Source: Draconibacterium orientale
GTDB taxonomy: Bacteria > Bacteroidota > Bacteroidia > Bacteroidales > Prolixibacteraceae
NCBI RefSeq assembly: GCF_000626635.1
Contig: NZ_CP007451.1
Location: 4,756,501-4,820,500 of the forward strand
Reading direction: 5' to 3'
Length of the DNA stretch: 64,000 bases
Below are positions 34,309 to 36,540 of this stretch, one piece after another. The notes beneath the pieces are model-generated. The model searched no databases and had not been told where the DNA came from. It saw nothing but the letters and a program-made list of their open reading frames with translations. Position 1 is the first letter of the stretch. Each line of letters starts with the position of its first letter. Both the position numbers and the translations under genes were made by a program.

Positions 34309-36252
34309 TCAGACCGGTTCTTTGGGCCAGTATTCTTCGAGACCCAATTTTTTAACCACTTCTGCAAAACGCGGATCGTTGTGCAGAAATTCAAAATCAG
34401 GGTGATTGATAATCAAATTAAAAAAGTGATAGTTCGGTCGCTTATAAGTGAGGTTTTGTTCCAGCCAGTAAACCGTTTGATCGGCATCCCCGAGAATGGC
34501 ATACCACCAGGCCAGGTAAAAATAGTCGCCGTTCAATCCCTCTACCCGTATCGGATGATTTTTATTCAAATCAATCATCCAATTAAATAAACCGGGCATA
34601 CCCTTTGCCATAAAAACAGCGTCTATTTCTAAGGTATCAACGGTATTATTTGAAAAGCGCGTAACAATATTCTTAAGCATGTCGCGAGCCTCCTCGTCCC
34701 GGTTCAGCTTTACGTAATTCAGGAAAAACAACCACAAATTACTGGCAAATGCGGGATTAAAACTGTGGGCCTCTTCCGTTACTACCAGCGATCGGTTATA
34801 ATCCTTTTCGAAATACGCAATCCAGGCATCAAGATTTTTAACTACCCAGAAATACGGCTCCAGCTCCACGGCCCTGTTTACTTGGTGACGTGATTCGCTG
34901 ACAGGCCCGGTAATCATTAAATACTGTGCATACCACTGCCTTGCCGTAGCAAAATTCGGATTTAATTCTATCGATTTCAGCAGAGTTTCACCGCCTTCGA
35001 ATATATCACGTTGTGCCCACACCAAAAATGCTCCGAGAATAGCATAAGCTTCTGCACATTCAGGGTCAAGTTCAATTGCTTTTTTGCTGAACTCATAACT
35101 ACGCATAAAACCATCGCACGACCGGATTATACCCCAGGCCGATAATTGCATACTGGCATTGGCAAGGCCGGCGTAAGCTTCGGCAAACGTTGAATCTTCG
35201 GCAATAGCCTTTTCGTAATAGGGAATGCTGTTTTTTACACCTTCGGCAGTAAAACCTGTTCGCTGTATACTGTTTGCCTGATGCAAAAGAAAACGGGCCT
35301 GCAGATAATAATCGTAGGCCTTTGCATTCCGGGTTTCAATCTTTTCAATATTGATGACTTCGGACTCGGAAAGTACCATTTATAACTTATTGGCCACCAG
35401 AAGAGCTACTTTCCCCTGAACATCGATAACATTATCGATTTGCCGGTCGTAATAATCCGACCACAAATGATCGTCATCTTTGGCATCGATCAACTGAACA
35501 TTTATCCTTACTTTATCGGCGTATTTGCGTACACTACCCTCAAGAATATATCTTACTCCCAGCTGCTTTGCTATTTCCCGTACCGTTAGCTCTGAATTCT
35601 GCACGAGTTCGGAAGATGTGCGCGAAACTACACGCAACGAAGTAATCCAGTAAAGGTTATTCAGTATGTCTTCGGTAATACCGTCGGCGAAATACTGATT
35701 CGCATCATCATCACTCAAATTTTTGAACGGAAGAACCACTATCGACAATTCATTCTGCTCCGGGCCGTTCATCCGACTTACACCAAACCAGCCCCCTAAG
35801 AAGAGTACGATGAACACCAGTGCTGATAAAAATATGGTTCGGTATATTCGTTGCGTTTTTACAGGTTGCGACTCTGTGGTTTCAGCAATATCATTTTCAA
35901 TACCAGCAGCCGGTTTTATTTTTCGCACTTCGCCGGGGGTACTTCCGAAAAGCTCATGAAAACAATGGCTGAAATAAGTCGGGCTTCCAAAACCTACCTC
36001 GTAAGCAACTTCCGAAATGGTTTTATTACTTTTCTGCAGCAGTTCTTTTGCGTTGTGTAAGCGAATATCGCGAATAAAACTACTTACCGATTTTCCGGTG
36101 GCCGCTTTTACCTTAAAATAAAGATTACTTCTGCTGATATTCATTTCGCGGGCCAGGTTACTCACACCAAAATTCTCGTTGTTTAGGTTGGCTTCAACTA
36201 TGGAAGTCAAGCGGTTTAAAAAAAGCTGGTCTTGCTGAGAATTGGCATTCAT
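34309..36252 (-). pseudogene. AraC-type regulator with membrane, FlgO-like and TPR domains, one in-frame stop
   Basis: Read through one stop, this is a 647-codon protein. Residues 10-105 form an AraC helix-turn-helix domain (FGVSNLAREMNISRSNLYFKVKA, then TISEVAYEVGFGSPTYFSHCF). A membrane helix follows at 125-148 (TIFLSALVFIVLFLGGWFGV), then a FlgO-like domain (SIVVLPFKNLSDDDANQYFADG to DAKDDDHLWSDYYDRQI), and a TPR region from about 292. The stop TAA at 35382-35380 falls between VANKL and MVLSESE in the same frame, at a point where relatives usually continue helically; CAA (Gln) would restore it. As read, the 290-residue half keeps DNA-binding and membrane parts but loses the TPR sensor. The 355-residue second half could be restarted at the ATG at 35379. 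The phased array 36344-36524 is upstream. Confidence 0.8.
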
Positions 36253-36343: not shown

Positions 36344-36524
36344 TCCGGCACCACTTTAGGTGTTTCCTGCGCCCTTTTTGCTTATTCCTGCGGCCTTTTT
36401 TTCAGTCCTGCGGCACTATTTCGTAATCCTGCGGCGCAGGGAAGCATAAAATTCATGCAGGGAGGGGTAAAATCGAGCAGGACGCCCAATTAGGTTGCAG
36501 GACGCCCAATAACCTAACAGGACG
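36344..36524. promoter_or_regulatory. Phased palindromic array of TCCTGC/GCAGGA boxes
   Basis: Five TCCTGCGGC-like boxes start at 36344 (degenerate TCCGGC), 36365, 36386, 36406 and 36427; five inverted GCAGGA/G boxes start at 36436, 36457, 36477, 36497 and 36517 (last is ACAGGA). Steps are 20-21 bp, two helical turns, so all boxes face the same side of the DNA. The two halves meet at the palindrome TCCTGCGGCGCAGGGA (36427-36442). The array is 92-272 bp upstream of the AraC-type regulator start and past the terminator of the gene on its other side. It looks like a multi-site operator; AraC-family proteins often bind half-sites about 21 bp apart. Non-coding, and period 20-21 excludes CRISPR. 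Confidence 0.75.
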
Positions 36525-36540
36525 TTATTACAAGAAAGCA

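Follow-up and report, generated by a model that had tools for sequence, protein, structure and literature searches.

A two-armed array of phased boxes in Draconibacterium orientale and its probable partner, a family of all-helical proteins

The 64,000-nucleotide stretch of the Draconibacterium orientale chromosome analysed here (the window) carries, upstream of an AraC-type open reading frame (ORF), two mirror-image arms of 6-bp boxes set 20–21 bp apart. The array is likely to be a solo (gene-less) member of a family of binding-site arrays, for which the binder would be a ~245-residue all-helical protein encoded at 1.98 Mb of the same chromosome. The computational evidence consists of the arrays themselves, their link to a gene, boxes that are specific to protein clades, a correspondence between one residue of the protein and one base of the box, and the conservation of boxes in solo arrays that are syntenic between species.

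The array in the window and its copies elsewhere

The window array has nine exact boxes, four in the left arm and five in the right, and one degenerate box on the left (Table 1). The CCTG cores of the left arm are found at 36366, 36387, 36407 and 36428, in steps of 21, 20 and 21 bp, and the CAGG cores of the right arm at 36437, 36458, 36478, 36498 and 36518, in steps of 21, 20, 20 and 20 bp, with the arms joined at CCTGCGGCGCAGG. As a chance control, the window was simulated 60 times with a first-order Markov model; the best structure with this centre held 0 boxes in 43 runs and 2 boxes in 17. With at most two boxes in any simulation, the phased, two-sided array with a central palindrome and 20–21 bp steps, described earlier in a sequence-only reading of this DNA, is confirmed. 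That reading counted ten boxes, five per orientation, of which the outermost one on the left is degenerate rather than exact. It also placed all boxes on one face of the DNA. This is true within each arm but not across the whole array, since the dyad centre has a 9-bp core-to-core step and there is no continuous register.

Table 1. Coordinates of the window array, its boxes and related solo arrays (window positions unless a genome is given)
Feature	Position	Strand	Remark
Whole two-sided phased array	36344..36522	.	solo copy, cognate gene not adjoining
Degenerate outermost left box TCCGGC	36344..36349	+	next box 21 bp away
Left-arm box TCCTGC	36365..36370	+	
Left-arm box TCCTGC	36386..36391	+	
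Left-arm box TCCTGC	36406..36411	+	
Innermost left-arm box TCCTGC	36427..36432	+	
Dyad centre CCTGCGGCGCAGG	36428..36440	.	CCTGN5CAGG
Innermost right-arm box GCAGGG	36436..36441	-	
Right-arm box GCAGGG	36457..36462	-	
Right-arm box GCAGGA	36477..36482	-	
Right-arm box GCAGGA	36497..36502	-	
Outermost right-arm box ACAGGA	36517..36522	-	
Stretch similar to the gene-linked array	36365..36528	.	77% identical to G000:C1:1982849-1983012
Solo GCGAGG-type array	G000:C1:2591157-2591379		period 21, A/T-rich spacers
Solo GCGAGG-type array	G024:C3:271466		period 21, A/T-rich spacers
Solo GCGAGG-type array	G030:C1:824627		period 21, A/T-rich spacers

Searched at the DNA level, the window's own genome (G000; 5.13 Mb, one contig) contains a second copy of the array, 77% identical, in which the stop codon of the cognate gene marks the end of the similarity. 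A three-core CAGG pattern occurred at 47 places in this genome, versus 2 for the reversed control. Among these, 36 make up five two-sided arrays, at 42 kb, 222 kb, 1.98 Mb, 4.07 Mb and in the window (4.79 Mb), while 10 fall in an unrelated repeat with 19-bp steps and one is isolated. In the list of three-core places, a sequence, CAGGAACAATGTTTTTCTGCAGG..., is repeated at ten places of G000:C1 (139366 and 499485, for example) and is perhaps an insertion sequence.

Across 61 genomes, the window's own among them, a DNA match to the array was found in 14, all of the same genus. A tighter pattern matched at least once in 31 of the 37 genomes of the genus, many of which do not rise above background; counts per genome were 0 to 60, as against 0 to 9 for the reversed control. 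The gap between the innermost cores was exactly 5 bp in 21 of the 25 arrays measured, and the arm steps often ran 20, 21, 20, 20, 21, 20. In the window array and its clade the box is a non-palindromic 6-bp unit; in a few distant members it is palindromic.

The sequence-only reading had offered two functions for the array, namely a nucleoprotein assembly site and an operator with multiple sites, bound by the AraC-family protein to control its own gene. The former fits the evidence well. The latter is suggested by the position of the array, which lies 92–272 bp ahead of the ORF start, beyond the terminator of the gene upstream. However, the array was present at none of the 29 AraC-homologue loci fetched besides the window (from 35 genus matches), the best homologue being only 57% identical, such that strict orthologues may not exist. 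It was also missing at six loci of DUF6588 orthologues in the genus, where no array lies within 1.5 kb and the 520 bp downstream differ in sequence; the junction seen in the window is therefore particular to this genome among those compared. Furthermore, arrays of the same type adjoin unrelated genes in every orientation (tandem for 17, divergent for 4 and convergent for 4 of 25 arrays, a count that takes in one gene-linked array and several that are syntenic repeats of each other), and they track another protein family, as described below. The AraC-type ORF itself (window 36252–35380, minus strand) ends in an in-frame TAA with an ATG immediately after it in the same frame, and the continuation frame of this AraC-HTH/TPR gene covers 34309–35379 (minus strand). 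Its four best relatives in the genus are single open frames of 647–670 residues, and the interrupted gene is either a pseudogene or a split gene. With the site missing upstream of related regulators and being a copy of a dispersed repeat, we rejected the operator, which we regard as extremely unlikely. The dispersed repeat behind the window array is a constrained, protein-linked element.

An array-linked gene and its protein

The gene that owns the array family lies at 1,983,012–1,983,752 in the D. orientale genome and encodes a 247-residue protein, with the array directly after its stop codon. Two paralogues are present in the same genome, each again followed by an array of 20–21 bp steps with another box, so that the boxes after the three genes are TCCTGC, GCGAGG (with a dyad of its own) and GGTGATAA (one-sided). 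Using a single detector for all members, over 450 bp after the stop codon and 460 bp before the start, we found a chain of at least six boxes downstream of 73 of the 126 scored members and upstream of one; shuffled downstream sequence gave none. The first box was at a median distance of 44 bp from the stop codon, and 31 different best 5-mers were seen among the scored members, some of which represent the same box in another register. The 53 scored members lacking an array of at least six boxes include all 14 of the MSYxDDF clade.

A rival reading is that the array acts as RNA, with the arms, which are complementary by construction, pairing in the 3' untranslated region of the gene to form a long interrupted hairpin. 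The plus strand folds with a z-score of −2.31, equalled by 3 of 200 shuffles, but the minus strand reaches −1.08, with 34 of 200 shuffles as good. In addition, 27 of the 73 downstream arrays are essentially one-sided (12 boxes versus 0 in L087), the orientation of solo arrays relative to genes varies, and Rfam returned only sub-threshold matches elsewhere in the stretch searched. An RNA element was rejected on the grounds of these sub-threshold matches, weak folds and unequal arms, and we hold it to be very unlikely.

Relatives of the protein were found in 32 of 120 related genomes, with up to 10 matches per genome when fragments are counted. A tblastn search of a named species collection passed 130 loci, of which 80 were kept. 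They belong mostly to Prolixibacteraceae (Draconibacterium and its family), Aquimarina, Cytophagia-type genera and other marine Bacteroidota, the rest being metagenome-assembled genomes with other labels, some possibly misbinned. Among 395 evenly drawn genomes of the phylum, a profile of the array-bearing family matched only the window's own, indicating that the family is sparse. No conserved neighbour gene was found, as no family occurred in more than 5 of the 80 gene loci (flanks of up to 3 kb). Genes for a Schlafen-group-3 helicase (L003:141-2120) and an HNH endonuclease (L003:2151-3101), a possible defence pair, are located about 1 kb away from the gene-linked 1.98-Mb array.

The AlphaFold2 model of the protein is all-helical (mean pLDDT 89.5, pTM 0.68), with one helix of 56 residues and another, C-terminal, at residues 229–245; its last two blocks score 83 and 59. 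A Foldseek search of the PDB gave nothing convincing, the best hits being long-helix look-alikes (E of 0.13 at best), and the single match in a PDB sequence search (E 0.8) was unusable. No Pfam family was matched by more than one of 78 members, and the three paralogues had no match among the PADLOC-DB defence models.

Tail residue, box base and solo arrays

Where the cores are CAGG, CTCG or CGGG, the box of most two-sided arrays spans positions +2 to +7 from the dyad. These cores are found with 65 array-bearing proteins, 46 of which were counted, since 18 end before the residue concerned and L145 was omitted. The +2 base goes with a single residue in the C-terminal tail, here called X (residue 235 in L053, five after Tyr230), in 42 of 44 cases: Asn goes with A in 20 of 21, His, Lys or Arg with G in 18 of 19, and Asp with C in 4 of 4. 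Two members with Tyr carry G and stand outside these pairings. The exceptions are L129 (Asn; A 4, G 7) and L136 (Lys; A 5, G 4), and one case counted as Arg with G (L201) has a palindromic box in doubtful register. The rule was spotted first and then tested on the same data set, where X ranks first of 231 alignment columns, with a corrected mutual information of 0.96 (z 14.4). The next column is residue 238, about one helix turn on, at 0.40.

Independent changes were counted on a tree built without the tail. Among 7 independent supported pairs contrasting A with not-A, Asn follows in 6 (5 in some pairings) and opposes in none, the remaining pairs having no difference in Asn (sign test, median p 0.031, range 0.031–0.0625). 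Asp accompanies C in 3 of 3 independent pairs. For G versus His, Lys, Arg or Tyr, 5 pairs follow, 0 oppose and 2 show no difference (p 0.0625).

Because the tail adjoins the array and the two can be exchanged together, part of this covariation could be linkage. The pair L212 and L219 bears on both accounts, as a natural swap in favour of the code and as an instance of tail and array having changed together: the two proteins are identical at 228 of 230 aligned residues and differ in the last 3–4 (FRNR and HSK), their arrays being GCAGG and CCGGG, respectively. These are two contigs of one metagenome bin and thus may reflect a chimeric assembly. Taken to the full, linkage would make the code a by-product, with tail and array swapped as one DNA block and the boxes unbound by the tail. 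We find this improbable: other tail columns are equally close to the array, yet X alone stands out; the pairing of Asn with A recurs in unrelated tails, not only beside CAGG and CTCG cores but also, in one case (L234), beside a CGGG core; and the residue-base pairing is in line with general major-groove chemistry. Another close pair, L082 and L133, with branch lengths of about 0.01 in the tail-free tree, has CAGG and CTCG arrays and is possibly a further natural swap of specificity.

The window array has no cognate gene beside it. Other solo arrays occupy shared positions between species, in five syntenic groups. Box positions in these arrays are identical at 469 of 498 sites versus 915 of 1225 for spacers (naive p 1.7e-23, a position being taken as box if it is box in either sequence). 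Boxes are better conserved than spacers in each of the five groups; in one of them, L286/L295, conservation is as high in the flanks as in the boxes.

The code can also be read on solo arrays. From 7 genomes with an intact clade-A protein, 16 solo CAGG arrays were fetched, and the +2 base is as expected from the genome's own protein in 11, disagrees in 4 (L056, L287, L290 and L298) and is unclear in one (L293). Moreover, genome G004 has 8 arrays, yet only a 47-residue fragment of the gene. The mismatches and the missing intact gene indicate that solo arrays can outlive, or at least lack, a matching protein. GCGAGG arrays had a match in 6 of the 37 genus genomes, 5 of which contain the corresponding protein clade. 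Genome G013 has GCGAGG matches without that protein, and the match in G012 is a box of the C type although the G012 protein has Asn.

A serious rival to the architectural or insulating complex favoured here is a dispersed repeat of a selfish kind, akin to REPINs or MITEs, whereby the helical protein assists in copying the array and the constraint on boxes reflects recognition by the mobiliser rather than a host function. Copies at different places within a genome are what such a repeat would leave, and they exist: L282 and L283 are 95.5% identical over 600 bp, and L280 and L285 are 88.8% identical over 259 bp that span a 217-bp array, with further shared pieces nearby. The patchy distribution and the many gene fragments point the same way. 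On the other hand, solo arrays keep their position across species and the gene is under purifying selection (dN/dS of 0.05–0.32 in 10 pairs). No nuclease, recombinase or transposase domain was recognised in the protein by Pfam, NCBIfam or PHROGs, and a motif resembling that of HUH transposases occurred in just 3 of the 80 gene neighbourhoods (in six frames, 4 times in 476 kb of gene loci, once in 160 kb around solo arrays and 0 times in 143 kb of control). The mobile-element collections agree, in that tblastn with L053 found no match in 72,556 plasmid records, the phage collection, searched with the same single protein, gave none, and neither did the viral collection. With so few HUH-like motifs and no conserved neighbour, a transposase-driven repeat was rejected, and the selfish repeat in its wider sense is in our judgement the less probable account, with perhaps one chance in a few.

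Near-perfect hairpins were noticed just outside two arrays, at about 3884–3916 of L219 (AGACTTTGGAGGTTT...) and about 3927–3961 of L060 (AGACCTTCAAGGTTT...). They look like separate REP elements, and in L219 an ORF with the HUH-like motif overlaps or comes after the hairpin.

Proposed mechanism and known systems

In the mechanism we propose, the ~245-residue protein would bind the boxes physically, with the basic C-terminal helix reading each 6-bp box in the major groove and residue X contacting the +2 base (Asn to A; His, Lys or Arg to G; Asp to C). The spacing of 20–21 bp corresponds to two helical turns, and the helical body may line up or stack protein copies two turns apart, forming a row along each arm. 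At the central dyad the two rows would come together head to head and so form a nucleoprotein complex with two arms, and paralogues with other tails and other boxes would constitute parallel, insulated systems within one cell. The cellular job is more likely to be chromosome structuring, or a roadblock or insulator, than promoter control. The full proposal is of a self-addressed system, wherein a small helical protein polymerises or stacks on two-armed arrays using a naturally evolvable one-helix code, tail and array are re-specified together, and several orthogonal pairs share one bacterial chromosome and act in trans on solo arrays like that of the window. We give it even chances.

Among the top-ranked matches of full-text searches in open-access literature, which takes in few subscription journals, neither the protein nor arrays of this kind are described. 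The claim to novelty rests on this and on the absence of usable Pfam, PADLOC and PDB matches. If true, the proposal adds an undescribed bacterial protein-DNA pairing whose specificity code can be read and of which dozens of variants exist in nature, among them near-identical proteins with swapped tails. It would thus offer a ready system to study how DNA-binding specificity and its sites change jointly, and would point to marine Bacteroidota having either a further, so far unrecognised level of chromosome organisation or a selfish repeat not known before.

The nearest named protein family is NCBIfam NF052641, 'PQLLE family protein', which two of the three D. orientale paralogues resemble weakly in sequence (E values of 4e-8 and 3e-4; the bit scores, 20.5 and 33.1, stay under the curated cut-off of 80 bits), the third having no match. 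Of the 395 genomes sampled evenly from the phylum, the model matches 15 (E ≤ 0.001), 6 of them above the cut-off, the window's own included. The difference is that none of 16 scored PQLLE-type matches, some below the family cut-off, has a downstream array of at least six boxes; two such genes, L092 and L097, have upstream chains at 20-bp steps (AAGGA, 6, and AAGAT, 7).

REP and REPIN sequences with their TnpA-REP (RAYT) offer a closer analogy, since there a chromosomal gene is flanked by its cognate repeat, copies lie between genes and the repeat type is lineage-specific. The present system likewise has one gene with a cognate repeat, scattered intergenic copies and a repeat type varying by lineage. 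It differs in its units, which are 6-bp boxes two helical turns apart rather than short hairpins (single or in inverted pairs), in its all-helical protein with no match to a transposase (HUH/Y1), and in its low copy number, since counts in two genomes gave 5 and 8 CAGG arrays.

Plasmid iterons are direct repeats about two helical turns apart beside the gene of a sequence-specific Rep binder, and the arrays described here share both the spacing and the adjoining gene of a putative binder. Unlike iterons, however, they are chromosomal, usually two-armed with a dyad, and include several gene-less copies; no Rep domain was recognised in the protein, and the plasmid collection had no match. Partition centromeres (parC with ParR, parS with ParB) are phased arrays of direct repeats on which a nucleoprotein complex is built. 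Arrays of phased direct repeats are the common feature, the complex here being a proposal. The differences are that several sites occur per chromosome and that the 80 loci, with flanks of up to 3 kb, contain no conserved neighbour gene and hence no linkage to a motor ATPase. Besides, the AlphaFold2 model has helices only and no strands, so the model shows no ribbon-helix-helix fold, unlike ParR.

Finally, the BrickBuilt MITE of Porphyromonas gingivalis is described, in the excerpts of its report, as a 23-nt head-to-tail repeat with no spacers and with terminal inverted repeats, and those excerpts report no owner gene for it (PMC4596501). Both BrickBuilt (PMC4596501) and the present family, which has a period of 20–21 bp and a dyad, are intergenic short-period repeat arrays dispersed in a Bacteroidota genome.
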